NCBI GenBank assembly: GCA_900321655.1
Contig: ONWU01000028.1
Coordinates: 1 to 35,546 of the forward strand
Source: an uncultured Bacteroidales bacterium
Lineage (GTDB): Bacteria; Bacteroidota; Bacteroidia; Bacteroidales; UBA932
Direction of reading: 5' to 3'
DNA length: 35,546 bases
Shown: piece by piece, positions 1 through 35,546 of the stretch
Numbering within the stretch: position 1 is the stretch's first letter
Layout: the number at the start of each line of letters is the position of its first letter
The notes under the pieces: generated by a model
Seen by the model: only the letters and a program-made list of their open reading frames with translations
The model's database searches: none
Told to the model about the DNA's origin: nothing
Program-made: the position numbers and the translations under genes

Positions 1-165
1 TTTAAATGACTAGCTTGCCTGACGCTGTTTCTATTAAGAAACTGACGCTCGTTTAAAGTAAAAAGTGTTACACTTTTTCTCGGTACTTGCTTGTACTTTT
101 AGTCTTTCAATATTGTCAATGAGCCGTAAAAAATCCCGTTCGTTTCAAACGGGACTGCAAAGGTA
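1..165 (-). promoter_or_regulatory. Leftward stable-RNA (probably rRNA operon) promoter and leader
   Basis: Read on the minus strand there is a very good Bacteroidetes promoter: -33 TTTG (185-188) and -7 TACCTTTG (158-165), 19 bp apart. It is followed by a stem TCCCGTT/AACGGGA (134-154), a T-run, then a boxA-like stretch (GGCTCATTGACAATATTG, around 107-125) and two small hairpins (60-78 and 27-42). No protein frame fits. This resembles the leader of an rRNA operon whose 16S gene would lie just beyond the left edge; no 16S sequence is visible, so the assignment is inference. Confidence 0.45.
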
Positions 166-192
166 GCAACTATTTTTGAACTGACAAATTTT

Positions 193-228
193 TTTGAAAG
201 AAAATTCACAAAAAATAAGTTAACTTTG
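193..228 (+). promoter_or_regulatory. Promoter of the chromate-transporter pair
   Basis: A -7 element TAACTTTG lies at 221-228 with a TTTG at 193-196 (spacer 24 bp, longer than usual). It is only 6 bp from the ATG at 235, so the mRNA is probably leaderless or nearly so. It overlaps the upstream part of the leftward promoter at 158-188. Confidence 0.4.
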
Positions 229-234
229 TAACCT

Positions 235-1441: not shown

Positions 1442-3148
1442 ATGAAACGAATTTCCATTTTCATCGCGGCTCTCGCCCTGCTGGCTTCCTGCCAGCGGCC
1501 CGTCCCGCAAGCTTTTTCCGTCATTCCCTACCCCAATGAGGTAAATCTTACCGAGGGAACGTACAACGTAAAGGGCACGGCCATCGCCGTGGACCCCGCT
1601 ATGGATGAGGCCTCCAAGGCCGCTGTCCAGCGCTTTGTATCGGCCCTTGAGACCGCCACGGGCGTCAAGACCAAGCAGGCCGACGGCGGCATCGCCTTCG
1701 TCAGGAACGCTTCCCTGGCCCCCGAGCAGTACGTGCTGGACATCCAGCCCAAGGCCGTCCGCGTGGAGGCATCGGCCCTGAACGGCTTCGTGTATGCCTG
1801 CGAGACGCTGAAGCAGATGCTTCCTCCGGCCATCTACGGCTCTTCGAAGGCCCAGTGCGACTGGGTGCTCCCCTGCGGCCGCATCGAGGACCAGCCCCGC
1901 TTCGCCTACCGCGGAATGCACCTGGATCCCAGCCGTCATTTCTGGAGCATCGAGGAAACCAAGAGGTACCTGGACGTGATGGCCACCTACAAGCTGAACC
2001 GCTTCCACTGGCACCTGACGGACGACCAGGGCTGGAGAATGGAGGTCAAGGCGTATCCCAGACTCACGGAAGTGGGCGCCTGGCGCAACGGAACCGTGGT
2101 CAAGAAGGACTGGAGCTCCAATGACGGCATCCGCTACGGCGGCTTCTATACCCGGGAGCAGATGAAGGAAATCGTGGGCTATGCGGCCGAGCGCGGTATC
2201 ACCGTCATCCCGGAGATAGACCTTCCCGGTCATATGGTGGCGGCCCTCACCGCCTATCCGGAGCTGGGCTGCACCGGTGGCCCTTACGAGGTTTGGACCC
2301 GCTGGGGTGTGGCCAAGGACATCCTCTGCGCCGGCAACGACCAGGTATTCACCTTCCTGGAGGGTGTGCTCAAGGAAGTGATGGAAATCTTCCCTTCCGA
2401 ATATATCCATATCGGCGGTGACGAGTGCTTTGGAGGAGACGCAGAGCCCAACAGACCGGATCCCTGGGACGTTTGCCCCAAGTGCGCCGCCAGAATGCGC
2501 CAGCTGGGCATCAAGAAAGGCCCCCAGGCCAAGCACCTGCTGCAGAACTACGTAACAGACCGTGTTCAGAAATACCTCAACGACAATGGCCGCAAGATTA
2601 TCGGCTGGGACGAGGTGCTGGAAGGCAACCTCACTCCCGGTGCCACAGTGATGAGCTGGCGCGGTGTGAAGGGCGGTATCGAGGCTGCCAACAAGGGCTT
2701 CGACGCCATCATGACGCCCAACAGCTATATGTACTTTGACTACTATCAGAGCAAGGAGCGGGACAAAGAGCCCTTCGCCATCGGCGGTTTCCTGCCCGTG
2801 GAGAACGTGTACTCCTACGAGCCCTTCGAAGGCCTCACCCCCGAAGCCCAACCGCATATCCTGGGTGTACAGGCCAACCTGTGGACAGAATACATCGCCA
2901 CTCCGGAACACCTGGAGTATATGCTCCTGCCCCGTATGTGCGCCCTCTCGGAGATCCAGTGGTGCAACGCCGACCGCAAGGACTTCGCCCGTTTCAACGG
3001 CTCCCTGGACCACACCTTCTTTATGCTGGATGCCATGGGCGTGAACTACTGCAAGGATGTGCGCGGCCTTATCGGCCTGGAATACCAGCCCGCCCGCACG
3101 CCCGAAGAGCTGGAGCAGTATCTGAAGGACAATCCCCGCAGCTGGTAG
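1442..3148 (+). CDS. Glycoside hydrolase family 20 beta-N-acetylhexosaminidase, lipoprotein
   Basis: Removes terminal beta-linked GlcNAc or GalNAc from glycans (EC 3.2.1.52 in the family). The 568-residue protein begins with a lipoprotein signal (Cys17 after LLAS), so it sits in an outer or periplasm-facing membrane. Residues about 20-150 form the GH20b domain; the TIM barrel starts near residue 155 (FAYRGMHLDPSRHFW). The catalytic pair is Asp327-Glu328 in HIGGDECFG: the Glu is the acid/base and the Asp orients the substrate acetamido group that acts as nucleophile. Length and domain order are normal for the family. It is a single-gene unit with its own promoter and a strong terminator. It lies about 20 kb from the amino-sugar locus at the right but could feed it. 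Confidence 0.95.
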   Translation: MKRISIFIAALALLASCQRPVPQAFSVIPYPNEVNLTEGTYNVKGTAIAVDPAMDEASKAAVQRFVSALETATGVKTKQADGGIAFVRNASLAPEQYVLDIQPKAVRVEASALNGFVYACETLKQMLPPAIYGSSKAQCDWVLPCGRIEDQPRFAYRGMHLDPSRHFWSIEETKRYLDVMATYKLNRFHWHLTDDQGWRMEVKAYPRLTEVGAWRNGTVVKKDWSSNDGIRYGGFYTREQMKEIVGYAAERGITVIPEIDLPGHMVAALTAYPELGCTGGPYEVWTRWGVAKDILCAGNDQVFTFLEGVLKEVMEIFPSEYIHIGGDECFGGDAEPNRPDPWDVCPKCAARMRQLGIKKGPQAKHLLQNYVTDRVQKYLNDNGRKIIGWDEVLEGNLTPGATVMSWRGVKGGIEAANKGFDAIMTPNSYMYFDYYQSKERDKEPFAIGGFLPVENVYSYEPFEGLTPEAQPHILGVQANLWTEYIATPEHLEYMLLPRMCALSEIQWCNADRKDFARFNGSLDHTFFMLDAMGVNYCKDVRGLIGLEYQPARTPEELEQYLKDNPRSW

Positions 3149-3202: not shown

Positions 3203-4637
3203 ATGCCGAAGGAGGAAGCGGCCGGGAGCGGAGCAGCACCCAGGCCATTACGCAATAGGCGCCTATCAGGCCGGTATTTACGGCCATTTTCACCGCCAGG
3301 GCGTCTCCGGCGCGGAGGCCGCAGAAATAGAGCCCGGCATAGGTGAGGCCCATCAGCAGGAAGATGAGGCCGATGCGCCCCCATTTGTACGGAATGGGAT
3401 AGTATCGGGAGCCCAGATATGCGCTGAGGACGAACATCACCAGGTAGCTGGCCAGATGCCCGAAAGCCGATGCCCAGTAGGAGAAGCGCGGCATAAACAC
3501 CACATTGACCACGATGGTGACCAGAAGGCCCGCCAGGGTTATCCAGATGGCCATATTGGTTTTGCCGGAGAGCTTGTACCACATGGAGACGTTGAACAGC
3601 ATTCCCAGCAGCATATAGCTAAGAAGCATCACGGGCACCACGCCCACGCCCACGCGGAAATCCCTTCCCAGAAGAAGCGAAATGATATCGATGTAGCCCA
3701 CTACGCCCAGCAGCACCAGGCCGCAGAAAGCCGTGAAGTACTCCATCACCATGGCGTAAAGCTCTTTGGAGCCCTTGTCTTTGGCCCGCTGGAAGAAGAA
3801 CGGCTCTGCCGCATAGCGGAACATCTGGATGAACAGGTTCATAATGACGGCCAACTTCACCGCCGCCTGATACACCCCCAGGGTGGCCTGCCACTGGGCC
3901 GATGACGTATCGAAGAAACGGAACAGCACCCGGTCCAGGAAATCGTTGGCAACGCCCGGAAGCGCCGCAATCATAAGCGGCAGCGAATACACCAGCATCC
4001 TTTTAACCAGGGCTCCGTCCCACACCAGTCTGAGCCGGACCACATCCGGGATAAAGAGCAACAGGCACAGCACGCAACTCACCAGGATGGCGAAGATGGG
4101 GTACGTGAAATCCGGCTGGGCGGGCCATACGAAGAACAGCACCAGGTTGGCACCCGTCTCCGTAAGGATTTTCACGGTTTTGAGAACGGCAAACTTCACG
4201 GCCTTGTGCTCCTGCCTCAGTTTGGCAAAGAGGATGGCGGTGATGCTGTCGCAGAAAAGGATGGCCGCCACATAGATGATAAGGCGCTTGTAGCCCGCAT
4301 ACCCCATAAGGGCCGACAAGGGCTCTGAGAAGGCCACCATGCAGGCCAGGAAGGCCAGATTGAGGCCGAAGACCGTGAGGAGGGCGCCGGAATACACCTT
4401 GCGGGGGTCCTCCCCTTCTTTGTTGGCGTAACGGAAGCACCCCGTCTCCAGGCCCAGCACCAGCACCACCTGCAGGATGGCGATGTAGGCCATAAACTCC
4501 GTCACCACCCCGTACTGCATCTGGGTAAGGGTGCGGGTATAGATGGGGACGAACAGGAAGTTCAGGATCCTGGCCAGAATGGAGCTGAAGCCGTAGATGG
4601 CGGTCTCCCCGGCCAATTGTTTCAACGGGTTTGCCAT
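3201..4637 (-). CDS. Polysaccharide flippase (Wzx/MATE-like, oligosaccharide flippase family)
   Basis: An inner-membrane protein of 478 residues with about twelve to fourteen hydrophobic helices, of the MOP/polysaccharide-transport superfamily. The N-terminus (LAGETAIYGFSSILARILNFLFVPIYTR) matches the typical opening of Wzx-like proteins; only short parts are quoted as evidence: residues 7-14 and the YTRTL segment. Such proteins flip lipid-linked oligosaccharides for capsule, O-antigen or exopolysaccharide. No glycosyltransferases are nearby, so the glycan is unknown. A longer frame opens at 4667, but the start at 4637 is chosen because it begins with the normal family N-terminus and the upstream ten codons overlap the promoter region. 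Confidence 0.85.
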   Translation of the reverse strand: MANPLKQLAGETAIYGFSSILARILNFLFVPIYTRTLTQMQYGVVTEFMAYIAILQVVLVLGLETGCFRYANKEGEDPRKVYSGALLTVFGLNLAFLACMVAFSEPLSALMGYAGYKRLIIYVAAILFCDSITAILFAKLRQEHKAVKFAVLKTVKILTETGANLVLFFVWPAQPDFTYPIFAILVSCVLCLLLFIPDVVRLRLVWDGALVKRMLVYSLPLMIAALPGVANDFLDRVLFRFFDTSSAQWQATLGVYQAAVKLAVIMNLFIQMFRYAAEPFFFQRAKDKGSKELYAMVMEYFTAFCGLVLLGVVGYIDIISLLLGRDFRVGVGVVPVMLLSYMLLGMLFNVSMWYKLSGKTNMAIWITLAGLLVTIVVNVVFMPRFSYWASAFGHLASYLVMFVLSAYLGSRYYPIPYKWGRIGLIFLLMGLTYAGLYFCGLRAGDALAVKMAVNTGLIGAYCVMAWVLLRSRPLPPSA

Positions 4638-4645
4638 ATGTCTTA

Positions 4646-4662
4646 CAAAATTACTAATTTTG
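4646..4662. promoter_or_regulatory. Back-to-back -7 elements between flippase and cyclophilin genes
   Basis: TAATTTTG at 4655-4662 reads rightward, 19 nt before the cyclophilin ATG. CAAAATTA at 4646-4653 is the same element (TAATTTTG) reading leftward, only 8 nt before the flippase ATG. The two elements sit 1 bp apart, so the two genes cannot easily be transcribed at once. Confidence 0.4.
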
Positions 4663-4681
4663 TACAAAATAAAACGGAAAG

Positions 4682-5356
4682 ATGAAAAAGATTGTCTTTA
4701 TCCTCCTGGCCATCGGCCTCCTGGCCTTTTCCTGCAAAACGCGCAGCACAGAAACGGTAACGGTAGACCTGACGCCCCAGGACAGCCTGGCCGCCACCAA
4801 AGCGGCCCTCACCCTCCCCGAAGAACCAGTGTTTGACATCGTCACCACCGAAGGAACCATCCGCGTGCGCCTGTTCAAGGATACGCCCCTCCACCGGGAC
4901 AACTTCTCCAAGCTGGCCCTGGCCGGTTACTATGACAACCTGCTGTTCCACCGCGTCATCAACGGCTTTATGATCCAGGGAGGAGACCCCTTCACCCGGG
5001 ACACATCCCTGGTCACCCGCTGGGGAGAAGGCGGCCCCAGCTATACCATCAAGGCCGAAATGCGGGATGCCGATGGCAATCCCCTGCACCGGCACGTGAA
5101 AGGGGCCCTCGCCGCCGCCCGTCAGGGAGACCTGGCCAACCCCTTCAAGGAGTCTTCCGGCTCCCAGTTCTACCTGGTCCAGGATCCGGAGCATTGCGTT
5201 CACCTGGACGGGGAGTATACTGTCTTTGGAGAAACCATCGCCGGCCTGCACGTGATTGACAAAATCGCCGCCCAGCCCACGGATCATCTGGACCGTCCCC
5301 TAAAGGAAATCAGAATTTTATCTGTAAAGCCCAACAAAGAGCTTAACAACAACTAA
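4682..5356 (+). CDS. Peptidyl-prolyl cis-trans isomerase, cyclophilin type, lipoprotein
   Basis: Speeds up proline cis-trans isomerisation in exported proteins. The 224-residue protein has a lipoprotein signal with Cys18 (LLAFSC), a short linker and a cyclophilin domain from about residue 52 onward. Family motifs are visible: NFSKLALAGYYDNLLFHRVI, GFMIQGGDP and SSGSQFYLV (the active-site core FHR..., ...QGGD, ...GSQF). Length is normal for the Bacteroidetes lipoprotein form. It is a single-gene unit between its own promoter and the terminator at 5427-5465. Confidence 0.92.
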   Translation: MKKIVFILLAIGLLAFSCKTRSTETVTVDLTPQDSLAATKAALTLPEEPVFDIVTTEGTIRVRLFKDTPLHRDNFSKLALAGYYDNLLFHRVINGFMIQGGDPFTRDTSLVTRWGEGGPSYTIKAEMRDADGNPLHRHVKGALAAARQGDLANPFKESSGSQFYLVQDPEHCVHLDGEYTVFGETIAGLHVIDKIAAQPTDHLDRPLKEIRILSVKPNKELNNN

Positions 5357-6179: not shown

Positions 6180-7325
6180 CTATTCCGCCAGGCAGCTGTC
6201 CATCAGCTGTTCCAGGGCTTTTTTGTCCAGGTTCTGGCCGATGAACACAATCTTCTGCATACGGTCTCCGTACTCCGGATCCCAGTCCTGCCTCAGTTTG
6301 CGGTCCCGGTTCATCATAGCCTGGAGCTCGTCCTCCGGCATCGTGGCAAACCACAGGCCGCAGTCTTTGACGCTCTTCTGCTTTCCGGCCTGCTCGAAGA
6401 GGTAGCACTTGTCTATGTCGTCCGAGAAATAGCACAGTCCCTTGGCGCGGATGATGTTCTTCGGCCATTTGGTGGCTACCATATGGTCGAACTTGTTCAG
6501 ATCCAGGGCCGGACGGCGGGTATAGACATAGGTGTCGATGCCGTACTCCAGCGCTTCGCCTTCGGCCTCTTCCTCCTCGTCCTCTCCTTCGATGGCGGCA
6601 ATCCAGGCGGCCGAAGTGGCCACGGCGTCAAAATCGAACATACCGGTGAAGATGATCTCGTCCAGGTCCACGTTTCCGTAGTTGCATTCCAGCACCTTGG
6701 CGCCGGGGTTGATGCTCTTCACAATGCCCTTGAGTTTGCCCAGCTCTTCGGGGGCCACATCGGCCGCCTTGTTCAGCAGCACGATATTGCAGAATTCAAT
6801 CTGCTCTATCACCAGGCGCTCCAGATCGTCTTCGCCGATGTCTTCTTTCTGGAGGGCGGCGCCGCTTTCGAACTCGTCCTTCATCCGGAGGGCATCCACC
6901 ACGGTGGCGATGCAGTCTACATAGGGGGCACCGCTGCGAACGGCCTGGGGGGCCAGGGCCGGCATCGTGCTGATGGTCTGGGCGATGGGGGCCGGCTCGC
7001 AGATGCCGCTGGCCTCAATCACGATGTAGTCGAACTTGTGGGTTTGGACCAGGTCCGAGAGCTGGGCCACCAGGTCCATCTTGAGGGTGCAGCAGATGCA
7101 GCCGTTCTGCAGGGCCACCAGGCTGTCGTCCGTCGAGCCCACGATACCGCCTTTTTCCACCAGGTCGGCGTCTATATTTACCTCGCCGATATCATTCACG
7201 ATGACGGCGAACTTGATTCCTTTCTTATTGGTAAGGATGCGGTTCAGAAGGGTGGTCTTTCCGCTTCCCAGGTAACCGGTCAGAAGAAGGACCGGGATGT
7301 CTTTACGTTGCAATTTGATTTCCAT
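6180..7325 (-). CDS. CobW/P47K-family GTPase (metal chaperone type)
   Basis: A cytoplasmic G3E-family GTPase of 381 residues. It has the P-loop GYLGSGKTT (residues 17-25), the metal-binding CxCC motif (Cys76, Cys78, Cys79), a VIEASG switch segment and a guanine-specificity motif (LLNKAAD). An acidic insert rich in Glu lies between the GTPase and the C-terminal CobW_C domain. Characterised relatives deliver zinc or other metals to target proteins, or support cobalamin synthesis. Nothing nearby identifies the metal. A -7 element TATCTTTG sits 20 bp upstream. The following gene encodes a small secreted protein and is probably co-transcribed. Confidence 0.9.
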   Translation of the reverse strand: MEIKLQRKDIPVLLLTGYLGSGKTTLLNRILTNKKGIKFAVIVNDIGEVNIDADLVEKGGIVGSTDDSLVALQNGCICCTLKMDLVAQLSDLVQTHKFDYIVIEASGICEPAPIAQTISTMPALAPQAVRSGAPYVDCIATVVDALRMKDEFESGAALQKEDIGEDDLERLVIEQIEFCNIVLLNKAADVAPEELGKLKGIVKSINPGAKVLECNYGNVDLDEIIFTGMFDFDAVATSAAWIAAIEGEDEEEEAEGEALEYGIDTYVYTRRPALDLNKFDHMVATKWPKNIIRAKGLCYFSDDIDKCYLFEQAGKQKSVKDCGLWFATMPEDELQAMMNRDRKLRQDWDPEYGDRMQKIVFIGQNLDKKALEQLMDSCLAE

Positions 7326-7366: not shown

Positions 7367-8539
7367 TTAGAAGCGGTAGCTGAGGGAGAAATTCACGCGG
7401 AAATGGGTAAATTTTCCGCTCTGGGCCATCTCGGAAAGCATATCTGAGCCGGCGTTGAAACTGCGTTTTTCGTTATAGAAACGGAATACGCAGTAATCTG
7501 TCCAGAGATTCAGGAAAAAATGCCCCGCCGTCCAGTTAAGCGCCGCACGGGCGATGAAATTGGGCTGGATGTTTCCCATCATAGCCACCTTTACGGCATT
7601 CTCGTCCGTATACACGAAGCTCTCGGTCTGTTTGTACCGGGCGGTTTCGGTGCGGTTAAACACCGTGAGCATAGGCATAGCCGTCAGGTTGATGGTGAGA
7701 TTGCTCAGGCGGGCCAGATCCCTGCTGGTTTCCGGATCCCGGTGGAACAACACCCAGTTGAAGGAATAGCCCCCGCCCAGGGAGAACTGGTAAGTAGAAT
7801 ATTTGCCGATGCCCTGGGAGACGCTCAGGATAACGTCGTCCTTGGGGTTGACGGTAAAGCCGCCCTGCATATACTTGGCGCCCACGATCCAGGAGCCAGT
7901 AGATTTTCTCTGAAGGGTTTTCCCGTCAAAGGCGGCCGTATAGGAGAACTTTTTCCGGTTGAAGGCATAATACCCGTCCACAATGACATTCACCATCTCT
8001 CCGGGCTCTGTGGACAGAAAAGGAGTGTGGGCATCAATGTTGGTGCTTCCGGGAATTTTCAAATCCATAAAGCCCTCCACCAGACTGGAGTAGCGTGAAT
8101 AACGGAAAGATGCCCCCCAGAAGGTGTTTTCGTAGGCCAGGGAAATGCTTTTGCTGGCCCCTTCCTTTCGGCCCACCTCGTGTGAAAGGCCCAGCGAGAT
8201 ACCGCCATAACCTATTTTCAGGCCCACTTCGTGCGCGGCACGGTCTTTAAGGCGCTGCTCCAGAGTAAAATCGTAGGGCTGATTCTGGAACTGGACATTT
8301 TCACTCCTCACGCTGGTTCCTACAGACCGCATCTCGTAGCCGGCCTGCACGCTCCAGAAGCGTCCCGGTTGGTAAACCCGCTCAGAATCCAGATAGGCCT
8401 TGGGCTCATGGATTTTGTTCCAATACTTGATAACCGTCTTCTTGACGGCTTCCTTCCCGGCAGACTGTGCCTGCGCCGGCAGGCCGAGGACCAACATCCC
8501 GGCCAGGGCCAAACAGATTCTATGCATGAGGTTAGACAT
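7367..8539 (-). CDS. Outer-membrane beta-barrel protein, DUF4421-like
   Basis: A protein of 390 residues with a signal peptide (cleaved after about residue 25, ...GLPAQAQ) and a long run of alternating hydrophobic/aromatic beta strands ending in an aromatic residue (LSYRF), typical of outer-membrane barrels. The segment IKYWNKIHEPKAYLD and the following RFWSVQAGYE resemble the DUF4421 family of Bacteroidetes barrels; this is pattern recognition, not a search result. The frame stays open to 8629, but that extra part runs into the tRNA gene and has no signal sequence, so the start at 8539 is chosen (8527 is possible). The function is unknown. Confidence 0.7.
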   Translation of the reverse strand: MSNLMHRICLALAGMLVLGLPAQAQSAGKEAVKKTVIKYWNKIHEPKAYLDSERVYQPGRFWSVQAGYEMRSVGTSVRSENVQFQNQPYDFTLEQRLKDRAAHEVGLKIGYGGISLGLSHEVGRKEGASKSISLAYENTFWGASFRYSRYSSLVEGFMDLKIPGSTNIDAHTPFLSTEPGEMVNVIVDGYYAFNRKKFSYTAAFDGKTLQRKSTGSWIVGAKYMQGGFTVNPKDDVILSVSQGIGKYSTYQFSLGGGYSFNWVLFHRDPETSRDLARLSNLTINLTAMPMLTVFNRTETARYKQTESFVYTDENAVKVAMMGNIQPNFIARAALNWTAGHFFLNLWTDYCVFRFYNEKRSFNAGSDMLSEMAQSGKFTHFRVNFSLSYRF

Positions 8540-8547
8540 ATTGAAGT

Positions 8548-8579
8548 AAATGCCTCCTACAATACTGTAGAAGGCATTT
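8548..8579 (-). terminator. Hairpin behind the tRNA-Ser gene
   Basis: AAATGCCT (8548-8555) pairs with AGGCATTT (8572-8579), and after one mismatch five further pairs close a 4-nt loop. On the minus strand it directly follows the tRNA 3' end and is followed by a weak T-rich stretch, so it probably ends or processes the tRNA transcript. Confidence 0.55.
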
Positions 8580-8582
8580 TGG

Positions 8583-8670
8583 CGGAGAGACCGAGATTCG
8601 AACTCGGGATACCCTTTTGGAGTATACACGCTTTCCAGGCGTGCCTCTTAAGCCACTCGAGCATCTCTCC
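8583..8670 (-). tRNA. tRNA-Ser (anticodon GGA)
   Basis: Reading the minus strand, an 88-nt class II tRNA runs from GGAGAGA (5' acceptor arm, 8670) to TCTCTCC plus discriminator G (8583). The anticodon stem CACGC/GCGTG holds the loop CTGGAAA, giving anticodon GGA (Ser codons UCC and UCU). There is a long variable arm and a normal T arm (GTTCGAATC). The CCA end is encoded at 8580-8582. Frames read through this region are artefacts. Confidence 0.97.
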
Positions 8671-8704
8671 AGACTTAAGTGAACTTTTTAAGAAACTGCA
8701 AAAA

Positions 8705-11162: not shown

Positions 11163-11227
11163 CAAAGATACGAAAAATAATTCAGGATTATCCGATTTGG
11201 ATAATTGGTAGGATTCGATTATCTTCG
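11163..11227. promoter_or_regulatory. Divergent promoters with a palindrome between GH9 and ATPase genes
   Basis: Leftward: TATCTTTG (11163-11170 on the minus strand) just before the GH9 ATG. Rightward: TTTG (11196-11199), a 20-bp spacer and TATCTTCG (11220-11227) before the ATPase ATG at 11244. Between them is a perfect inverted repeat ATTATCC-N5-GGATAAT (11187-11205) that covers the rightward -33 box, a plausible operator. Confidence 0.4.
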
Positions 11228-11243
11228 CAAAAAAATATGCGTT

Positions 11244-12435: not shown

Positions 12436-12460
12436 ATGGAGTAGTATAGGGCCGATGGCC

Positions 12461-12970
12461 TTAGATGGGATTTGCGCGCTTGTTGTAACTGGCCTGGGCA
12501 AGCGGAACGATGGGACCGTGGAAACGACGGGTGGGGTTGTTTCCTCCGGGGGTGAAAATAACATCGGCCGCATTGTCTCCCTTGCGCATATTGATCTTGT
12601 AGGTTCCTTTCCAGCGACGACCCAGAACGGACATCGTAATCCGGACGTTGCCCTTCTTGTCTACATTCACCTCATATTTGGTGACTTCGCCCATGTTGTT
12701 TTCACCGTTTCCGGTGATGAAACCAGCACAGGCAAAGGCATTTTCCCCTTCATATGAAAGGAAGTAGTCGTTGTTGTCATTGGAAACAATCTCTCCCTCT
12801 ACGGTGGTGTACTCGGAGGGAACCAGGACCCATGCCTTGGCGTTGATGGCAGCCACGGCGGCATCGTAACGCTCCTGTCCCTGCGCGGCTTTCTCCTCCT
12901 TGGACAGTTTCTGTCCAAAGAGGGGAAGTGCGCAAAGTGCAAGCGCTACAAGGGTAGCAAGCTTTTTCAT
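12461..12970 (-). CDS. Secreted DUF4251-type protein, last gene of SusCD operon 1
   Basis: A protein of 169 residues with a signal peptide (cleavage after about residue 20, ...LPLFGQ). The mature part begins with a helix rich in Lys, Glu and Ala (KLSKEEKAAQGQERYDAA) and then has beta strands with the order seen in DUF4251 proteins of Bacteroidetes (a start near 'WVLVPSEY', a Gly/Asn-rich middle, a C-terminal strand with FHGPI). The family has no known function. Its start codon overlaps the stop codon of the upstream lipoprotein gene by one base, so it is the last gene of the SusC-SusD operon. Confidence 0.7.
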   Translation of the reverse strand: MKKLATLVALALCALPLFGQKLSKEEKAAQGQERYDAAVAAINAKAWVLVPSEYTTVEGEIVSNDNNDYFLSYEGENAFACAGFITGNGENNMGEVTKYEVNVDKKGNVRITMSVLGRRWKGTYKINMRKGDNAADVIFTPGGNNPTRRFHGPIVPLAQASYNKRANPI

Positions 12971-27614: not shown

Positions 27615-29300
27615 ATGAAAAGACTTCTTATCATATTGTCTCTGGCCCTGGTGGCAGCTGCCTGCCACCAGCCCGAATACGTGAAGCCCACCGCCGAGAG
27701 GCAGGGCATCACATCCCTGACGGCCTATTTCACCTTCGGTCCCTTCGTGGACCAGGAGATGGCCAAACTCAACATTGACAACCCGGAACAGACCCGTTTC
27801 GTGATTCCGGTTCCCTACTATTATCCCGAAAGCTCCTTCGACGAGACGGAGATTTATATGATCAAGGCCCGCATCACGGCCGAGCTGCAGCCCAACTGCA
27901 AGATCGAGCCCGGTCTGAATGTCCTGGACCTGACGGAAGAGAACGAGTTCACCTACACGGACGCCTCCGGAAACAGCCGCAAGATTGTCATCACCGGTAC
28001 CCGGGTGCACTCCGCCAAGGCCCAGCTCCTCACCTTCGACCTCGTGGAACCCGCCATCAGCGGTATCGTGGACGAGGCGCAGCACAAGGTCTCCCTCGTG
28101 AGCGCCGATGACCTGTCGGCCGCCGTGGCCAAGGTCTCCATCTCTGCCCACGCCTCCATTTCCCCGGATCCTTCCGAGCCCCACGACTACAACAACGGCA
28201 TCACCTTCACGGTGACGGCCGCCAACGGCGTGGACAAGACGGAATACACCGTGATGAAGGAGGTGCCCGAGAAGATCGATTACGGCTTCAACGGCTCCAG
28301 CGTGAAGCAGCTGTTCAACTTTGATCCGGTTTCTAACATCGGACTGCCGCCTTACAACAGCGTCGCCTACATCTCCATGGCCGTTACCGGCAACTTCCTG
28401 GTGGTTTCCACCGGAGACGGAGCGCCCATCTATCTGAACAAGCTCACCGGTGTGAAGGCCGGCAACCTCAATACCGGAGCCGCCACCGTGGCCGGCATCA
28501 CCTCCGACGAGGCCGGTAACCTCCTCCTGTGCAACCACGCCCAGGGCGGTGAGACCTTCACCATCTGGACCTCCGCCTATGTAAATGAGCCTCCTGTGGA
28601 ATTCTATTCCTTTACCAACACCTCCGACCTTCCTATGGGTTACAAGGTGAAAGTGATAGGTGACATCACCGGGAATGCCCAGATCATCGCCACCCTGGAA
28701 GGCATTGACGGAATTACCTCCTCCAGCAAGTTCTGGTCCATCCAGGTAGAAGAGGGCAACGTGGTATCGGCCGAACTGATTGACGCCAGCGCCTCCGGCC
28801 TGGTCTGGGGCAGCGCTCCGGTGAACGTGACCAGTATGTGCGCCGCTTCCGTGAATCCGACCGACGGCTGGTTCGGTGCCTGCTACGATCCCAACGTCCT
28901 CACCTGGGTGAAGGCCGACGGATCCGCCGGTTCCACCGCCTCTACCGGTGACGGCAACAGTTGGGGCTGGAACTACAACTGCTTCGATTCCAAGCAGTTC
29001 AACAACGCTACCTACCTGTCCGGCCTCGTGGTGAGCCACTTCCCGGCCTGGGGCATCGGCCCGCGCCTGTATGTGTACGACATCACCAACCCGGCTGCCG
29101 TGAGCGGAGACTTCGAGTCTACCGGAGCCCTGGTCATGTCCAATACCAACATTGCCTGGTACCAGACGGGAGACTACTCCGTAGCGGCCGGTGATGTGCT
29201 CATCGCTCCTTCGGCCGACGGCTTCATGCTGTACATCTACTATTACGACCATAACTCCCAGGTTATCGGTGGCTATAGCGCAGATTGTATTAAACGATGA
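27615..29300 (+). CDS. DUF5018-type lipoprotein, probable surface glycan-binding protein
   Basis: A surface lipoprotein of 561 residues from ATG 27615 (lipobox AAAC, Cys17). The first about 215 residues look like two Ig-like domains; the rest is a beta-rich domain with repeated strands and a motif GITSDEAGN that recurs as GITNDEAGN in the BACON protein four genes along the operon. DUF5018 proteins commonly follow susD, the place of SusE/SusF-like glycan-binding proteins. No catalytic motif is visible. The first ATG of the frame (27594) lies inside the SusD gene; the later one has the lipoprotein signal. It overlaps the next gene by 4 bp. Confidence 0.75.
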   Translation: MKRLLIILSLALVAAACHQPEYVKPTAERQGITSLTAYFTFGPFVDQEMAKLNIDNPEQTRFVIPVPYYYPESSFDETEIYMIKARITAELQPNCKIEPGLNVLDLTEENEFTYTDASGNSRKIVITGTRVHSAKAQLLTFDLVEPAISGIVDEAQHKVSLVSADDLSAAVAKVSISAHASISPDPSEPHDYNNGITFTVTAANGVDKTEYTVMKEVPEKIDYGFNGSSVKQLFNFDPVSNIGLPPYNSVAYISMAVTGNFLVVSTGDGAPIYLNKLTGVKAGNLNTGAATVAGITSDEAGNLLLCNHAQGGETFTIWTSAYVNEPPVEFYSFTNTSDLPMGYKVKVIGDITGNAQIIATLEGIDGITSSSKFWSIQVEEGNVVSAELIDASASGLVWGSAPVNVTSMCAASVNPTDGWFGACYDPNVLTWVKADGSAGSTASTGDGNSWGWNYNCFDSKQFNNATYLSGLVVSHFPAWGIGPRLYVYDITNPAAVSGDFESTGALVMSNTNIAWYQTGDYSVAAGDVLIAPSADGFMLYIYYYDHNSQVIGGYSADCIKR

Positions 29301-30340
29301 AAAACTTCTTCCACTTCCTGGTGTCCACCCTGCTGGTCCTGTCCTGCACTCCCGACAGTGCAGGCGGGACACCGGAGTGGCCCTGGACAGAACCGGACAC
29401 TCCTCCCGCGGCGGCAGAACCCAATCCTGCCGTCGTGGAAAAGGGGTGGACCAACGTATCGGCCTCCTACACCCTGCCGGAAGGACTGCAGGTCTACAAA
29501 AGCCCTTCCTCCCTGCAGGGCGTGAAAGCCGTGGCCTACCTGGCTGTAGCGGACCCCTCGAAGATTGCCTGGGACGTCTGGAGCATATCCGACCCCGAGA
29601 TGAAGGGAACGGACGAGGCCCTCAAGACGCCTTCAGAGGTGTTCTCGGCCACATCGGCCCCGCTTATCATCAACGGAGGGTACTTCTTTGCTGAAGGAGG
29701 CAAGCGGTATAACGCGTCCGTCGCCTACAGCAGCGGAAAGCGCTATGGCGTGAACCTCAACTACGCTTCCCAGGACTGGGAGACCTACTACTACCCCACC
29801 CGGGGCGTCTTCTACCAGGCCGACGGGAAAACCCTCTACGGATGGACGTATTACACCCCTTCGGGACAGCATTACCTCTATGGGAAGCCCGCCCCGAACA
29901 GCTGGGAGAAAGCTCCGCTGCAGGCTCCTGACGCCAATTTCCCGGAGAAAGCCGCTTCCTTCGCTCCCACCACTGCCATCGGTGCGGGGCCCGTTCTCCT
30001 GCACAACGCGGAAGTGACGGACAGCTGGGAGGCCGAGCTCTTCTACGGAGACGGGGCCGATGACAAGATGCCCAAGGCCCGTCATCCCAGGACCGCCATC
30101 GGCAGCAGCAGCTCCCGCCTGTTCCTGTTTGTCTGCGAAGGACGGCAGATGACGGAAGGCGTGTCCGGTCTCACCACCGCTGAAGTGGCCCGTGTTCTGA
30201 AAGAGCTGGGCTGCACAGAGGCCCTGAACCTGGACGGAGGCGGATCCTCCTGTATGCTGGTGAACGGAAAGTCCACCATCCGGGAATCGGACGGGAAGCA
30301 GCGGGCCGTAGGAAGTGCCATTATCCTCAAGAAAAAATGA
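29297..30340 (+). CDS. Phosphodiester glycosidase (NAGPA-family) lipoprotein
   Basis: A 347-residue lipoprotein (Cys17) of the family that includes the animal 'uncovering enzyme', which splits GlcNAc-1-phosphodiesters. Family motifs present are NGGYFF (from Asn126), the AIGAGPVLL segment, the RTAIG segment, and the signature LNLDGGGSS (Asp313 with three Gly). Bacterial members are poorly characterised, but the fold suggests cleavage of a sugar-1-phosphate diester. With the GlcNAc epimerase and SusCD genes this points to a substrate with phosphodiester-linked amino sugar (inference). Starts and stops overlap by 4 bp with both neighbours, so translation is probably coupled. Confidence 0.85.
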   Translation: MKNFFHFLVSTLLVLSCTPDSAGGTPEWPWTEPDTPPAAAEPNPAVVEKGWTNVSASYTLPEGLQVYKSPSSLQGVKAVAYLAVADPSKIAWDVWSISDPEMKGTDEALKTPSEVFSATSAPLIINGGYFFAEGGKRYNASVAYSSGKRYGVNLNYASQDWETYYYPTRGVFYQADGKTLYGWTYYTPSGQHYLYGKPAPNSWEKAPLQAPDANFPEKAASFAPTTAIGAGPVLLHNAEVTDSWEAELFYGDGADDKMPKARHPRTAIGSSSSRLFLFVCEGRQMTEGVSGLTTAEVARVLKELGCTEALNLDGGGSSCMLVNGKSTIRESDGKQRAVGSAIILKKK

Positions 30341-31716
30341 GAAAACTGACAACCATACTGCTGCTGGCCCTCGCGGCCCTTTCCTGCCAGGCGGAGAAAC
30401 AGAATCCGTGGGACGAGGACTGGGACAAGCCCGACCAGCCGGACAAGCCCCAGCCCGTGGCTACGGCCAAACCCCGCTATGTGTGGATCGATGCCGCCGC
30501 CAACTTCGACGACTACGGAAACAGCCGGGACCGCATCCGCGAAGACTGCAAGAGGATTGCCCAGACCGGGTTCACAGACATCATCGTGGATGTGCGCCCC
30601 ACCACCGGAGACGTCCTTTTCAAGTCTTCCGTGGCTCCTGCCCTGAAGCGGATAGACCGCTGGAAAGGCTCTTCCTACGGATGGGCGGAGAGAACGGCTG
30701 ATTTCGACTACCTCCAGGCCTTCATCGAGGAAGGCCACGCCGCCGGGCTCAAGGTGCACGCCGCCATGAATACGATGGTGGGCGGATACCTTTGCCCCTA
30801 CGGCCTGGGAAAGGAAGGAATGGTTTATTCCGACGAAGCCAAGAGGGAATGGTGCACGGTACAGAACCGTCCGGAAGGGCTTGTCAACTGCTTGGACATA
30901 GACGAGTATGGTGCCCGTTTCCTGAATCCCGCCCACAAGGACGTACAGGCGTTCGTGATCTCCCTGGTGGCCGAACTGGCCGCCTACAAGGAACTGGACG
31001 GCATTGTCCTGGACCGCTGCCGTTACGATGACAGCGGCCTGATGAGCGATTTTTCGGAAACCACCCGGAAAGCCTTCGAGCAGTTCTGCGGGCATAGCGT
31101 GAGCCCCTGGCCTTCGGCCATCTTCGCTCCGGGAACGGAAAGCCTGGGATCGGCCGTCTCCTCCCTTCAGAGGGAATGGCTCACCTTCCGGGCCAGAACC
31201 ATCCACGACCTGGTGGAGAAAGCCGCCAAAAAGGCCCACGAAGTGAACCCCAAGATCCGCTTCGGCACTTATGTGGGAGCCTGGTATTCCAGCTATTACA
31301 CCAGCGGTGTCAACTGGGCCAGTCCCTCCTATAACTGCAAGACGGAATACCTCTGGGCATCGGCCGACTACCAGGCCGCCGGATATGCCGACCATCTGGA
31401 CTATATCTTCCTGGGCGCCTACGCCGGGGCCGACCACATTCACGGAACCACGGAATGGACGATGGAAGGCTTCTGCAAGCTGGGAGCCAAGAGGCTGGCT
31501 TCGGCCGTTCCCTTTGCCGCAGGCCCGGATATCGGCAACAGCAGCGGATTTCCGGAAGGCGGCAAGGGCAGCCTGATGCCGGACATTGTCAAAACCTGTA
31601 TCGGGAATGCCGACGGGCTGTTCATCTTTGACCTTTGTCATATCAAAATGTACGACTACTGGTCTTCCCTGAAAACAGGGATTGACGCTTATTTGAAAAC
31701 TGTAAATAACCAATAA
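30337..31716 (+). CDS. GHL10-type (family-10-like, DUF187) glycosidase lipoprotein
   Basis: A 459-residue lipoprotein (Cys17), with a Pro/Asp/Lys-rich linker (about 21-45) and a TIM barrel from about residue 50. Visible barrel motifs include RYVWIDAAANF, FTDIIVDVRPTTGDV, GLKVHAAMNT, and the active-site-like LDGIVLDRCRYD and YIFLGAYAG. These fit the GHL10 group (YngK-like), related to barrels that act on amino-sugar polymers such as the C-terminal part of PgaB. The exact activity is unproven; deacetylated or phosphate-linked hexosamine chains are a reasonable guess. It overlaps the NAGPA-family gene by 4 bp and lies 1 bp before the BACON gene. Confidence 0.82.
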   Translation: MRKLTTILLLALAALSCQAEKQNPWDEDWDKPDQPDKPQPVATAKPRYVWIDAAANFDDYGNSRDRIREDCKRIAQTGFTDIIVDVRPTTGDVLFKSSVAPALKRIDRWKGSSYGWAERTADFDYLQAFIEEGHAAGLKVHAAMNTMVGGYLCPYGLGKEGMVYSDEAKREWCTVQNRPEGLVNCLDIDEYGARFLNPAHKDVQAFVISLVAELAAYKELDGIVLDRCRYDDSGLMSDFSETTRKAFEQFCGHSVSPWPSAIFAPGTESLGSAVSSLQREWLTFRARTIHDLVEKAAKKAHEVNPKIRFGTYVGAWYSSYYTSGVNWASPSYNCKTEYLWASADYQAAGYADHLDYIFLGAYAGADHIHGTTEWTMEGFCKLGAKRLASAVPFAAGPDIGNSSGFPEGGKGSLMPDIVKTCIGNADGLFIFDLCHIKMYDYWSSLKTGIDAYLKTVNNQ

Positions 31717-31717: not shown

Positions 31718-33613
31718 ATGAAAAAAGTATTCGCTCTCCTTCTGATAGCAGGCGGTGTGCTCTCTGCCTGCACCAAGGCGCCCGAAGTGGCGACCCAACT
31801 GGAGGTTGATGCCACCGAGCTGGTCATTACCGATGACCCTGGCGTGAAACAGCTGAGTATCAAAGCCAACGGCCCCTGGCATATGGAAATTTCCGAAAAG
31901 TGGGTGGTGGCTTCCAAACTGAGCGGCAGTGGTGACGCCGTCGTGAAATTCGGCGTCCTGCCCAACAAGGACTATTCTTCCCGCGAGGCGCTGATTACCA
32001 TCAAGGCCGGCAGCCAGACCAAAACTGTCAAGCTCACCCAGGCCCAGATGGACGGCATCATCCTGGACGTAGATGCCCTGGATATTGATTATGAAGCCGG
32101 AGAGTATGTCATTCCGGTAGAGACCAACATTGCCATCACGGCCGAATCCGACGCCCCCTGGCTGGAGGTGGACGCTACCAAGGGTCTGGTGGAGAAGGGC
32201 ATCACCATCCGCTACGCCCTCAACCCCGGCCGTGAAAGCCGCGAGGGTCATATCACCATCAGCGGAGATGGCCTGACGCAGGTATTCCCGGTAACCCAGG
32301 GCGCCTTTGAGCCCGAATTCAACCTGGATGACGAGCAGGGCGTAGGCCCCTGGGGCACGCTCAACGCTCCCAAGGAAGGCCTCACCTACACCTTCACGGC
32401 CGTCACCAATATGGACTTCACGGCCGATGCCCCGGATGCCGACTGGATCCACGTCACCAAGGAAGGGGATGTGGTTACCGTCACCATTGACGAAAACCCC
32501 GACGCCGCCCGTGTAGAGTACATTTATATGGGCTGCTCCAAGGAAGACGTGGACTACAGCGACTACGGTGCCATGATCAAGGTTAAGCAGAAGGGACAGG
32601 CCCAGGCCGAAGAGCTCTGGAAGATGGACTTCTACTGGGGCATCTTCCCCCAGAGCACCCGCGTTTCCACGGCTGTTGCGGGAGATTACTTCATCCTGTA
32701 CTCCCCCAATGCCATTACCCCCGGCTTCCATCTGATGAACAAGGCCGATGGCACCGAGGCCGCCGTTGTGGAAGCCCCTGATAACGTGACCGGTATCACC
32801 AACGACGAAGCCGGCAACGTGATTGTGACCACGGGCGGCAATTTCCCCATCAGCACCGAAACCTGGGCCCTGATTCCGGAAGAGCAGATCCCCCTGAAAG
32901 TATACGTACTCACCCAGGAAGAATTCCTTGCCGGCACGGTGGGAGAGCCCATCATTACCTACTATGACGAGTTCTACGGCTATGGCCTGGACAATGCACA
33001 GGTGAACGGAAATGCCAAGGGAGACGGCCTGCTCACGATGACTTCCGGTGCAGCCGGTGGCGGCAGCTTCGTCGTTGCCTGGGAGATCAAGGACGGTGTC
33101 GCGACGGATACGCCCACCGCATCTGCCTCCTGCGCTTCCATCGGCGGAGACCTCTGGGATTCCTTCCACGGTGTTTCCATCGGCGCAGGCACCACGGCAG
33201 CCGAAGGCTTCTACTTCGCCGGTTATCTGGGAGACTATAACCTCCATTACACGGCCAAGGCGGGTGAAGAGACCAGCTGGAGCGTGGCCTTTGAAACCGG
33301 TTACACCTGGGAAGGCGCCATCAATACGGGTGATGTCTTCACCTATGAAGGCCACCGTTACCTGGCCGTTCTGGGTATGAACTACTTCGCCTATTCCGAC
33401 TGGGGCCTGAATCCCTGCAAGATCTGGGTGTTCAATATGGACGACCCGGCAGACCCCGTGCTGGTGATCAACCAGGAGTACTGGGCCAACGAAGAGAACT
33501 GGCAGTACGGAAGCAATACCGACATAGAAGTGGTAGAGGAAGACGGAATGCTGGTGGCCTATCTGGTAGATGTTGCCGCTTCCACCTACCGGAAGCTCGA
33601 AATCCAGCTGTAA
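31718..33613 (+). CDS. Triple-BACON lipoprotein with DUF5018-like C-terminal domain
   Basis: A 631-residue lipoprotein (lipobox SAC, Cys18). Three BACON-type Ig modules follow one another: about 27-109, 114-195 and 215-294, each with the pattern W...G / R..-I.I / V.Q. Residues about 300-631 are a beta-rich domain related to that of the earlier DUF5018 gene (shared GIT.DEAGN). BACON domains are often carbohydrate-binding or spacer modules, so this is likely a tall surface glycan-binding protein. No catalytic motif is seen. It belongs to the same operon and is 43 bp before the MFS gene. Confidence 0.75.
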   Translation: MKKVFALLLIAGGVLSACTKAPEVATQLEVDATELVITDDPGVKQLSIKANGPWHMEISEKWVVASKLSGSGDAVVKFGVLPNKDYSSREALITIKAGSQTKTVKLTQAQMDGIILDVDALDIDYEAGEYVIPVETNIAITAESDAPWLEVDATKGLVEKGITIRYALNPGRESREGHITISGDGLTQVFPVTQGAFEPEFNLDDEQGVGPWGTLNAPKEGLTYTFTAVTNMDFTADAPDADWIHVTKEGDVVTVTIDENPDAARVEYIYMGCSKEDVDYSDYGAMIKVKQKGQAQAEELWKMDFYWGIFPQSTRVSTAVAGDYFILYSPNAITPGFHLMNKADGTEAAVVEAPDNVTGITNDEAGNVIVTTGGNFPISTETWALIPEEQIPLKVYVLTQEEFLAGTVGEPIITYYDEFYGYGLDNAQVNGNAKGDGLLTMTSGAAGGGSFVVAWEIKDGVATDTPTASASCASIGGDLWDSFHGVSIGAGTTAAEGFYFAGYLGDYNLHYTAKAGEETSWSVAFETGYTWEGAINTGDVFTYEGHRYLAVLGMNYFAYSDWGLNPCKIWVFNMDDPADPVLVINQEYWANEENWQYGSNTDIEVVEEDGMLVAYLVDVAASTYRKLEIQL

Positions 33614-33656
33614 TTTCCTTTCTATTCACTAACTTTACGGGATAGAACCTTATTCA

Positions 33657-34916
33657 ATGACACAGAAAATAAGCGCAAAAGTAGTGTTCATAGCCCTGGT
33701 AGCAGCCCTGGGCGGCATCCTGTTCGGCTATGACACAGCTGTTATCTCCGGCACCACCGAGGTGGTGAAGTCGCAGTTCGGCCTCACCACCGGAGGTGAG
33801 GGCTGGTATGTGGGATGCGCCCTCATCGGTTCCATCGCCGGTGTGCTGGTAGCCGGAATGTTGTCGGATTTCCTGGGCCGCAAGAAGACGATGCTCATAT
33901 CGGCCGTCCTCTTTTCCATATCGGCCATCGGATGTGCCTTCAGCCAGGATTTCACCCAGCTGGTGATCTACCGCATCGTGGGCGGCTTCGGCATTGGCAT
34001 TGTCTCCATCGTCTCGCCGGTGTACATCTCCGAGGTGGCACCGGCCGAGGTGAGGGGCACTATGGTGAGCCTCTACCAGCTGTTTATCACCATCGGCTTC
34101 CTGCTGGCCTACCTGGCCAACTACCTCATCCTGAAAGGGACGTCGATGCCGGATTACTGGAGGCCGATGCTGGGAGCCGAAGCCATCCCGGACCTGCTTT
34201 TCCTGGTGCTCATTTTCTTCATCCCGGAAAGTCCGCGCTGGCTGGCCGTCCGCGGCCAGCGGCAGGATAACAGCGAGGCCTGGAAGGCCCTGCGGGAGAA
34301 AGGCATCCTCAAGGCCGTCCTCATCGGCAGTGCCATCGCCATCCTGGGCCAGTTTATGGGCGTGAACGCCGTGCTCTACTACGGACCCAAGATCTTTGCC
34401 GACGCCGGCTTCCCCAACCCGCTCTTCTCCACCGTGCTGGTGGGCGTGGTGAATATGCTCACCACGGTGATCGCCCTCCTGATCATAGACAAGGTGGGCC
34501 GCAAGCAGCTGGTCTGGTGGGGTGTGGGCGGAATGATCGTGTGCCTGCTGATGATCGGCCTCTACTTCCTGCCCTCCACGAACCTTCCCAATTGGTTTAT
34601 GCTCACCTTCTTCCTGCTGTACGTGTTCTGCACGGCCATCTCCATCAGCGCCGTGGTGTTCGTGCTGCTCTCGGAGATGTATCCCAACCGGGTCCGCGGC
34701 CTTGCGATGTCTATCGCCGGCCTGGCCCTCTGGGTGGGAACGTATCTGATTGGCCAGCTCACGCCCTGGATGCTGGAGAACCTCACACCGGCCGGAACCT
34801 TCTTCCTCTTTGCCTTTATGTGCCTGCCGTACCTGTGGATTATGTACAAGTACGTGCCAAACACCACCGGCAAAACACTGGAGGAGATTGAAGACTACTG
34901 GCGTGCGAAGAACTAA
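33657..34916 (+). CDS. MFS sugar porter (sugar:H+ symporter type), shortened central loop
   Basis: Inner-membrane sugar uptake protein of 419 residues with twelve hydrophobic helices. Sugar-porter signatures: GYDTAVISG (helix 1), GRKKT (loop 2-3), PVYISEVAPAEVRG, PESPRWL, GQFMGVNAVLYYGP (usual QQ replaced by GQ), DKVGRK, SEMYPNRVRG and a C-terminal GKTLEEIEDYW. Family members are normally 450-490 residues; here the cytoplasmic loop between helices 6 and 7 is only about 20 residues instead of about 60, which accounts for the difference. A weak -7-like TAACTTTA at 33630-33637 could add a local promoter. The likely cargo is the sugar released in the periplasm by the enzymes of this locus. Confidence 0.88.
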   Translation: MTQKISAKVVFIALVAALGGILFGYDTAVISGTTEVVKSQFGLTTGGEGWYVGCALIGSIAGVLVAGMLSDFLGRKKTMLISAVLFSISAIGCAFSQDFTQLVIYRIVGGFGIGIVSIVSPVYISEVAPAEVRGTMVSLYQLFITIGFLLAYLANYLILKGTSMPDYWRPMLGAEAIPDLLFLVLIFFIPESPRWLAVRGQRQDNSEAWKALREKGILKAVLIGSAIAILGQFMGVNAVLYYGPKIFADAGFPNPLFSTVLVGVVNMLTTVIALLIIDKVGRKQLVWWGVGGMIVCLLMIGLYFLPSTNLPNWFMLTFFLLYVFCTAISISAVVFVLLSEMYPNRVRGLAMSIAGLALWVGTYLIGQLTPWMLENLTPAGTFFLFAFMCLPYLWIMYKYVPNTTGKTLEEIEDYWRAKN

Positions 34917-35546
34917 CCTATCCGTCCTGCTGCTGGCAGCGCTCCTCTCCTGCGGCGGCCATCGAGGCGGCCCGCGGCGGGGCCCGGGTGCTGGTGGTGG
35001 AGGAAACGCCCTGGCTGGGCGGGATGCTCACATCGGCCGGCGTAAGCGCCATCGACGGTAACTACAGGCTGCGCGGCGGGCTGTTCGGGGAATTCACGGA
35101 TTCCCTGGCGGCCCGCTACGGCGGCTATGAAGCGCTGAAAAGCGGCTGGGTTTCCAACATCCTTTTCAATCCGCGTGTAGGGGCCGATATCCTGCGAAAT
35201 ATGGCCGATGAGGCCGGCGTGAAGCTGCGGATGGGCACTTCTCTCTGTCATTCTGAGCGCAGCGGAGACTCTCCATGGGAGCTCACCCTCTCTGACGGCA
35301 GCCACGTCAGGGCCCGCATCCTCATCGACGGGACGGAGCTGGGAGATGTGGCCGAGGCCGTGGGCGCAGCAGAGCTCCAGGACCGGGTCACGGCCCAGGA
35401 TATGACCTATGTAGCCATCGTGAAGGAATACGACCATCCCGCCCCCGCCGAAAAGCCGGAAGGCTACGACCCGGAGCTGTACCGGCACTGCTGCGACACC
35501 TGGGACAAGGAGATGATGCTTTCCTACGGCCGGCTGCCGGACGGGC
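34903..35546 (+). pseudogene. FAD-dependent oxidoreductase lipoprotein, N-terminus broken; runs off right edge
   Basis: A GTG at 34903 starts a good lipoprotein signal (RRTNLSVLLLAALLSC). From about 34958 the next frame (+1) reads AAIEAARGGARVLVVEE, then TPWLGGMLTSAGVSAIDGNY, ILFNPRVGADIL and LIDGTELGD, a family of exported FAD-dependent oxidoreductases seen in Bacteroidetes sugar loci. Between the two, the glycine-rich GxGxxG start of the FAD-binding fold is missing and the frame changes, so about 20-25 codons have been lost at TCCTGCGGCGGC. The rest stays open to the edge. The cause may be a real deletion or an assembly error. The start overlaps the MFS gene by 14 bp. Confidence 0.7.
35246..35274 (+). 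repeat. Dispersed-repeat-like sequence inside the oxidoreductase coding region
   Basis: TGTCATTCTGAGCGCAGCGG, continuing AGACTCTCC, is close to a repeat that I recall as common in intergenic DNA of many bacteria (GTCATTCTGAGCG... core). Here it lies in frame and encodes CHSERSGDSP at a point where relatives have a variable loop. No other copy is seen in this window. Confidence 0.5.

Follow-up and report, generated by a model that had tools for sequence, protein, structure and literature searches.

The DNA analyzed here, a stretch of 35,546 nucleotides (the window; contig ONWU01000028.1 of assembly GCA_900321655.1) from an uncultured Bacteroidales bacterium of the UBA932 lineage, is interspersed with the heptamer ATCGGCC, a genome-wide iterated DNA word whose signal lies at the level of the DNA. 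The metagenome-assembled genome containing the window (G000; 2.11 Mb in 59 contigs, 82% complete) carries 2,980 copies, 1,492 in forward and 1,488 in reverse orientation, vs. 287 copies (135 + 152) of the same word read backwards, which served as control. Nine sampled species of one clade within the genus carry the word or close spellings of it. This pattern suggests that some cell machine may read the word as a mark of the cell's own DNA.

ATCGGCC as an iterated word at the DNA level

The window (GC content 56.8%) contains exactly 50 copies, i.e., 30 ATCGGCC and 20 GGCCGAT on the plus strand, in agreement with the approximate number given in the initial annotation, and its density of 1.41 copies per kb is the same as that of the whole genome. 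Composition and low-order Markov models were rejected, as they predict 6.1 (order 0), 9.6 (order 2), 13.6 (order 3) and 24.1 (order 4) copies for the window. An order-5 model yields 48.9 copies and matches the observed count, a figure that is circular because the hexamers feeding the model are themselves inflated by the word.

For comparison with codon-preserving controls, 41 stretches of G000 including the window were used (679 kb or a third of the genome, with 606 kb of predicted coding sequence), and stretches reading as N were dropped ahead of counting. In this coding sequence, ATCGGCC occurs 923 times, while synonymous shuffles within genes that keep the proteins lead to an expectation of 209 and those that also keep the dinucleotide across codon junctions to 211-216. 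At the level of the models run, codon use and codon junctions are therefore refuted as the source of the word, and the excess proposed in the initial annotation was upheld in the codon-shuffled comparison suggested there. Among all 8,192 heptamers ATCGGCC ranks first, with a z-score of 48-49 compared with a spread of z-scores over all words of 2.7-3.3. All six classes of frame and orientation are raised 2- to 25-fold, with 201, 21 and 270 copies in the three frames of the coding strand vs. 84, 6.5 and 10.8 expected, and 34, 13 and 384 copies on the opposite strand vs. 3.7, 6.6 and 95 expected. Non-coding DNA of the sample contains 48 copies vs. about 10-12 expected, and the enrichment amounts to 3.4- to 4.7-fold throughout bins of codon typicality. 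Counts as high as that of ATCGGCC for ATCGGCA, ATCGGCG or similar words, an outcome that the initial annotation had named as speaking against a special status of the heptamer, were not found in the coding sequence (ATCGGCA, 275; ATCGGCG, 134; ATCGGCT, 97; TTCGGCC, 481), and ATCGGCA and TTCGGCC are themselves raised about 1.7- to 2.4-fold.

The effect of the word on codon choice is pronounced. Between a codon ending in A and GCC, 270 of 328 serine codons (82%) in G000 are TCG, vs. 843 of 10,046 (8%) away from both, which bears out the earlier remark that TCG is rare except before GCC. The effect is absent in two outgroup species (4 of 18 and 2 of 9, vs. 19-21% elsewhere). The amino acid pairs that the word can encode are little affected, and the word has therefore spread mainly via synonymous sites: among 392 pairs, SA (rank 106) and GR (rank 222) show no shift and IG (rank 34) shows little. 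A signal driven by the proteome was rejected on the basis of these three ranks, although AD (rank 4, z-score 3.3) and PI (rank 21) stand higher. The proposal of a DNA-level rather than a protein-level signal thus rests on the enrichment in all frames, in both orientations and in non-coding DNA, on the codon shuffles, on the small shift in amino acid pairs and on the retention between species described below.

The word is not palindromic (ATCGGCC vs. its complement GGCCGAT). When flanks were compared in a frame-matched manner, clear information was present solely at position -1, where C and T are favored and A and G disfavored, and at position +8, where A is disfavored, and weakly at +10; AT-rich flanking repeats were not found within 12 bp of the word. 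Clustering or fixed spacing was rejected, as the intervals in the G000 sample are close to exponential (near-Poisson; mean 637 bp, coefficient of variation 1.10). Neither strand of the contigs is preferred in this sample (476 vs. 497 copies), the two orientations relative to coding strands are nearly equal (492 vs. 431), and strand bias was found in none of seven clade species tested. A strand-oriented replication word was rejected accordingly, since strand fractions from 0.60 upward are ruled out in G000 (P = 0.0005; contig strand, positions of ori and ter not located), and the replication-related role considered in the initial annotation is not supported. A single weak result runs counter to the lack of strand bias: over 37 G000 stretches (3 of 40 with fewer than 8 sites were left out), the strand balance of the word correlates with GC skew (Spearman -0.33, P = 0.043). 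Among neighboring copies 7-100 bp apart in the coding sequences of seven species, opposite orientations are in slight excess (200 of 336 vs. 179 expected).

Retention, distribution and dialects within the genus

To follow retention of the word, 60 genes orthologous between G000 and G019 were compared (71 kb of alignment); the counts comprise blocks of at least 20 aligned codons and sites at which the amino acid is conserved. At such sites, 45 of 59 copies of the word are retained, vs. 19.3 predicted from codons. The corresponding z-score of 7.6 is the first of 153 words, followed by 4.4 for the next, with a mean of 1.4 and a standard deviation of 1.3. Retention beyond the codon prediction indicates that the word is maintained as a word. 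Where bases differ at the word between these two genomes, a hand count gave 33 transversions and 16 transitions at conserved amino acids; transversions outnumber transitions, and the word is therefore not the product of any one type of mutation. With more distant members of the clade, raw retention is about at the level of all heptamers (e.g., 9 of 57 from G000 to G054), and at conserved amino acids 16 words are kept vs. 5.5 expected from codons, with pairs counted in both directions.

With regard to distribution, raw counts over 61 genomes of the genus range from chance level up to 1.5 copies per kb. Eight enriched species constitute a single clade in the tree of alanyl-tRNA synthetase (AlaRS; support 100/99). 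This tree leaves out G005 as a fragment, G047 for lack of a match and the second fragments that G036 and G037 had. The rpoB tree, which left out G027 (fragment), groups G005, G037, G038, G051 and G054, with G003 as their sister (Shimodaira-Hasegawa-like approximate likelihood ratio test 99). Just 38 of the 61 genomes yielded a match to the RpoB family PF00562, which is missing even in G057 (94% complete). Under the codon model, the outgroup species G003 and G034 and the pooled low species G016, G041, G044 and G052 are at about 1.0-fold. The raw counts of G003 and G036 mislead because the codon model explains them: G003 reaches 0.49 copies per kb, yet at 0.9-fold the model accounts for it, and G036, with raw counts of 632 vs. 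87 for the reversed word, has 14 copies vs. 12.5 expected in 30 kb of coding sequence. In the small sample of G014 (18 kb of coding sequence), 15 copies stand against 8.4 expected, with a summed excess over the spellings considered below of 0.77 per kb. No comparable dominant other word was found in the low species, among which the samples of G016 and G030 comprise just 21 and 11 kb.

For the remaining species of the genus, as for every genome beyond it, the assessment is based on raw counts only. Of 395 genomes sampled from the phylum, the 394 others reach at most about 0.65 copies per kb, and none of 80 named contigs with AlaRS exceeds 0.56 per kb, in a collection from which near records may be missing. 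One small contig of the Prolixibacteraceae has 7 copies vs. 2-3 expected. The word appears to have been gained inside one genus, between near relatives with and without it.

Spelling of the word differs along the clade (folds from the codon and junction model; samples of 48-606 kb of coding sequence, the smallest, G051 and G005, with wide errors). ATCGGCC is raised 4.5-, 5.4- and 3.5-fold in G000, G019 and G028, respectively, and ATCGGCA 2.2-, 1.8- and 1.7-fold, while ATCGTCC and ATCGTCA are at 0.9-1.6-fold; G000 additionally shows an excess of TTCGGCC (2.1-fold). In G057, ATCGGCA (4.7-fold) exceeds ATCGGCC (3.0-fold). All four spellings are raised in G054 (ATCGGCC 3.0-, ATCGGCA 2.9-, ATCGTCC 2.9- and ATCGTCA 2.5-fold), which G051 and G038 resemble, although only two and three of the four words, respectively, are firm there, and G037 additionally features ATCGACC (3.1-fold). 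For G005 (57 kb of coding sequence), ATCGGCC (3.0-fold) and ATCGGCA (2.7-fold) are firm and ATCGTCA (2.9-fold) is based on few counts. Across the clade, the spellings can be written as ATCGGCC, ATCGGCM, ATCGKCM and ATCGDCM. The excess summed over ATCG[GTA]C[CA] amounts to 0.94-1.58 per kb in the nine clade species, compared with 0.10 in G003, 0.06 in G034, 0.17 in the four pooled species and 0.19 in G036. The total is therefore similar across the nine species, while the spelling shifts.

Copies in the window and side observations

Within the window, the word reads on the plus strand at positions 795-801, 911-917, 1639-1645, 1771-1777, 3071-3077, 4712-4718, 6759-6765, 9305-9311, 9314-9320, 10199-10205, 10451-10457, 10868-10874, 10967-10973, 11957-11963, 12563-12569, 19199-19205, 23140-23146, 23386-23392, 24127-24133, 26077-26083, 28766-28772, 29055-29061, 29458-29464, 29653-29659, 31149-31155, 31359-31365, 33899-33905, 33920-33926, 34554-34560 and 35032-35038, and on the minus strand at 772-778, 3368-3374, 3897-3903, 6236-6242, 9038-9044, 9809-9815, 10840-10846, 12450-12456, 20103-20109, 20235-20241, 21009-21015, 21183-21189, 21814-21820, 26065-26071, 30055-30061, 32422-32428, 32743-32749, 34162-34168, 35182-35188 and 35203-35209. 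The 16 coordinates quoted in the initial annotation are right or one to two bases off (910 is 911, 3898 is 3897 and 35180 is 35182). Its two ATA-TCG-GCC trios are present in frame, starting at 33897 and 33918, in the gene for a sugar transporter of the major facilitator superfamily (33657-34916).

Genes of the SusC/SusD type, together with the relatives of the AlaRS, were the basis for judging the host to be a member of the Bacteroidales. The minus-strand gene at 8705-11158 encodes a glycosyl hydrolase family 9 enzyme fused to a polysaccharide deacetylase domain; opposite to it, a shadow frame of 972 amino acids is open at 8231-11149. The gene at 11205-12397 on the plus strand encodes an ATPase_2 (PF01637) protein; its reading may be divided between two frames that overlap near 11930-11978, where the copy at 11957 falls.

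Two regions elsewhere in G000 are free of the word. In a run of 7.9 kb (L024:11699-19597, on C12), no copy is present vs. 9.4 expected; it encodes a pair of near-duplicate proteins that are coiled-coil-like and about 1,150 amino acids long, each beside a small lipoprotein-like gene, and has a low GC content at third codon positions. Depletion of the word in foreign DNA is only glimpsed from this single run. The other region (L017:2800-6626, on C17) is a run of four genes, of which that at 3310-4683 encodes a protein matching the phage-family reverse transcriptase phrog_1423 (E-value 9e-39); neither this protein nor its three neighbors had a Pfam match. The run could be a diversity-generating retroelement or another retro-element.

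A second apparent word in G000, CATAGAC, was rejected as a further DNA mark. It is mostly frame-bound (142 of 178 copies as xxC ATA GAC) and is read as avoidance of ATCGAC, with ATA as the preferred isoleucine codon before GAC and an excess of CATAGAC/ATAGACC in the sample. Furthermore, GATC, CATG and CTAG are strongly depleted in the sample, TTGGCCAA has 4 copies vs. 38 expected, and CTCGAC/GTCGAG has 32 copies in the coding sequence vs. 296 expected. These depletions look like restriction avoidance, although the four methyltransferase families searched for were not found in G000.

Possible functions and comparison with known systems

Among the functions that the initial annotation had offered, DNA uptake fits best. 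As a leading but tentative interpretation, to which we give somewhat less than an even chance, ATCGGCC would be a self-DNA recognition word read by a putative uptake or recombination protein and working like the uptake sequences of Neisseria and Haemophilus. A sequence-specific DNA-processing protein would recognize the word (with a consensus of about 5'-YATCGDCM) as marking the cell's own DNA, and word-bearing DNA would be preferred in uptake or in recombination with the chromosome. Copies would be born by point mutation and then spread and kept via preferential exchange with conspecific DNA, and the dialects would reflect drift in the specificity of the reading protein. Preferential conspecific exchange is also the assumed means by which uptake sequences spread and are kept in Neisseriaceae and Pasteurellaceae. 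The extent of the excess over codon models, the enrichment in all frames and orientations, the retention, the predominance of transversions, the non-palindromic and strand-symmetric nature of the word, its near-Poisson spacing, its near-uniform enrichment over bins of codon typicality and the similar summed excess per kb are all consistent with this interpretation. A ComEC-family gene was found in all 34 genomes searched, and with Riemerella the phylum comprises a naturally competent member without pilus homologs (PMC8459023, excerpt).

Several observations weigh against such a self-recognition word. Its core of 7-8 bp is shorter than that of known uptake words (9-12 bp), and non-coding DNA is not preferred (0.66 copies per kb vs. 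about 1.5 in coding sequence). The nearly uniform enrichment, which includes genes with atypical codons, fits an internal process equally well. The ComEC frame is short in this genus (354-477 amino acids, e.g., 362 in G054 and 412 in G033), and ComEC is equally present in species without the word and therefore explains neither its presence nor its absence. By raw counts only, some genomes such as G077 (474 vs. 34 for the reversed word) and G290 (1,435 vs. 193) stand far above this control, and enrichment of the word may therefore extend to other genomes. Among the matches listed from the open-access literature (titles and abstract openings), there was neither a Bacteroidota uptake word nor this word, and we therefore know of no precedent in the phylum to report.

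A Chi-like site is unlikely. Here, RecBCD or AddAB would read the word on single strands and stimulate recombinational repair, with a lineage-specific change in enzyme preference driving its spread. Like Chi, the word is short, GC-rich, asymmetric and over-represented and is kept as a word; a shift in enzyme specificity could yield dialects, and the weak correlation with GC skew points in the same direction. On the other hand, Chi of Escherichia coli is strongly strand-skewed, while no orientation bias of the kind expected along the direction of replication was seen on the contigs. About one copy per kb is a high density for a 7-bp Chi, and Chi sites are stable within families, unlike a word gained within a genus. 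Rather improbable, in our estimation, is a word that a DNA methyltransferase creates or maintains in the manner of the highly iterated palindromes (HIPs), either via mismatch repair directed by methylation (Elhai's model) or via some process gated by methylation. In its favor, degenerate asymmetric words recall the targets of Type IIG and Type III enzymes. The density of the word near 1 per kb is that predicted by Elhai's model and that of HIP1 (GCGATCGC) and the alternate cyanobacterial HIPs, for which replacement by other words in sporadic lineages is likewise known (PMC4390886, excerpt). However, HIPs are palindromic and tied to matching methyltransferases (PMC4390886, excerpt), whereas the word described here is asymmetric, so that the likeness to HIP1 raised in the initial annotation holds for density and fails for symmetry. 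The C5 methyltransferase family PF00145 was found in 7 of 34 genomes searched, among them only one of the nine clade species; PF01555 exceeded the cut-off in three of the nine, PF07669 in five, in one of them barely, and PF02384 in two. None of these four families was found in G000 (82% complete) and none is common to the nine species, while others, e.g., PF02086, were not searched. A single shared methyltransferase of these four families is therefore unlikely, and they lend no support to the modification target suggested initially.

Context-dependent mutation or repair bias that yields the word without function, which the near-uniform enrichment over codon-typicality bins would suit, is likewise improbable. 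The differences at the word are mostly transversions and occur at several positions, several codon positions are set together, as seen for TCG between xxA and GCC, and the unshifted amino acid pairs SA and GR point to filtering by selection, with IG shifted little and AD and PI ranking higher. An even density of about one copy per kb and the slight excess of oppositely oriented neighbors could also be expected of a binding site for a chromosome-organizing or defense protein, such as a nucleoid protein, a loader of structural maintenance of chromosomes proteins or a system sparing word-bearing DNA. Known organizer sites are few or clustered, and we consider this explanation very unlikely. An effect of codon pairs, translation or composition is hardly credible: most copies do lie in coding sequence and the order-5 model reproduces the count in the window, but coding-strand orientations are near equal, all frames and non-coding DNA are enriched, shuffles preserving codons and junctions fall 4-fold too low and outgroups of the same genus lack enrichment under the same test. 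Because the word is non-palindromic, unoriented, present at about one copy per kb, apparently gained in one clade and split into dialects, we would favor a self-DNA word for uptake or recombination over a HIP1-like word and over Chi of the E. coli type.

In a wider and still more tentative proposal, Bacteroidota would possess a self-recognition code for uptake or recombination that arose once in a single genus, amounts to about one excess copy per kb and drifts in spelling, leading to genetic barriers between closely related uncultured gut species. If true, this would imply that gut Bacteroidales possess a protein reading DNA in a sequence-specific manner, a protein not found described in the literature searched. 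Few groups are known to have such words, i.e., Neisseriaceae and Pasteurellaceae with their uptake sequences and cyanobacteria with HIPs, and how the words originate and change their spelling has yet to be explained. In the present genus, origin, drive and dialect shift can be compared directly, as the word is present in some species and absent from close relatives and as sister species use different dialects at similar density.

Comparison with the uptake signal sequences (USS) of Pasteurellaceae reveals an over-represented short word in both cases, and for USS two subclade variants as well as an origin of the word by mutation rather than by copying have been described (PMC1626085, excerpt). 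USS differ in their 9-bp core with flanking AT-rich repeats. In Pasteurellaceae they are biased to gene termini (PMC2346458, excerpt). The DNA uptake sequences (DUS) of Neisseriaceae occur in 943 to 5,918 copies per genome (PMC3630211, excerpt), and the 2,980 copies of G000 lie within this range, which counts in favor of an uptake-related word. DUS comprise 10-12 bp, whereas ATCGGCC with its informative flank at -1, +8 and weakly +10 does not reach a core of 9-12 bp with extended consensus; it is, furthermore, described here from one clade of one Bacteroidales genus. In other respects the two are alike: both are non-palindromic words with thousands of copies per genome, which for ATCGGCC are distributed genome-wide and greatly exceed the predictions of composition and codon models, and in both the spelling varies by species around a constant core and the distribution follows phylogeny (PMC3630211, excerpt). 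A general orientation bias is likewise lacking in both (PMC2346458, excerpt). We do not class ATCGGCC as an uptake sequence, but it appears to work like one.

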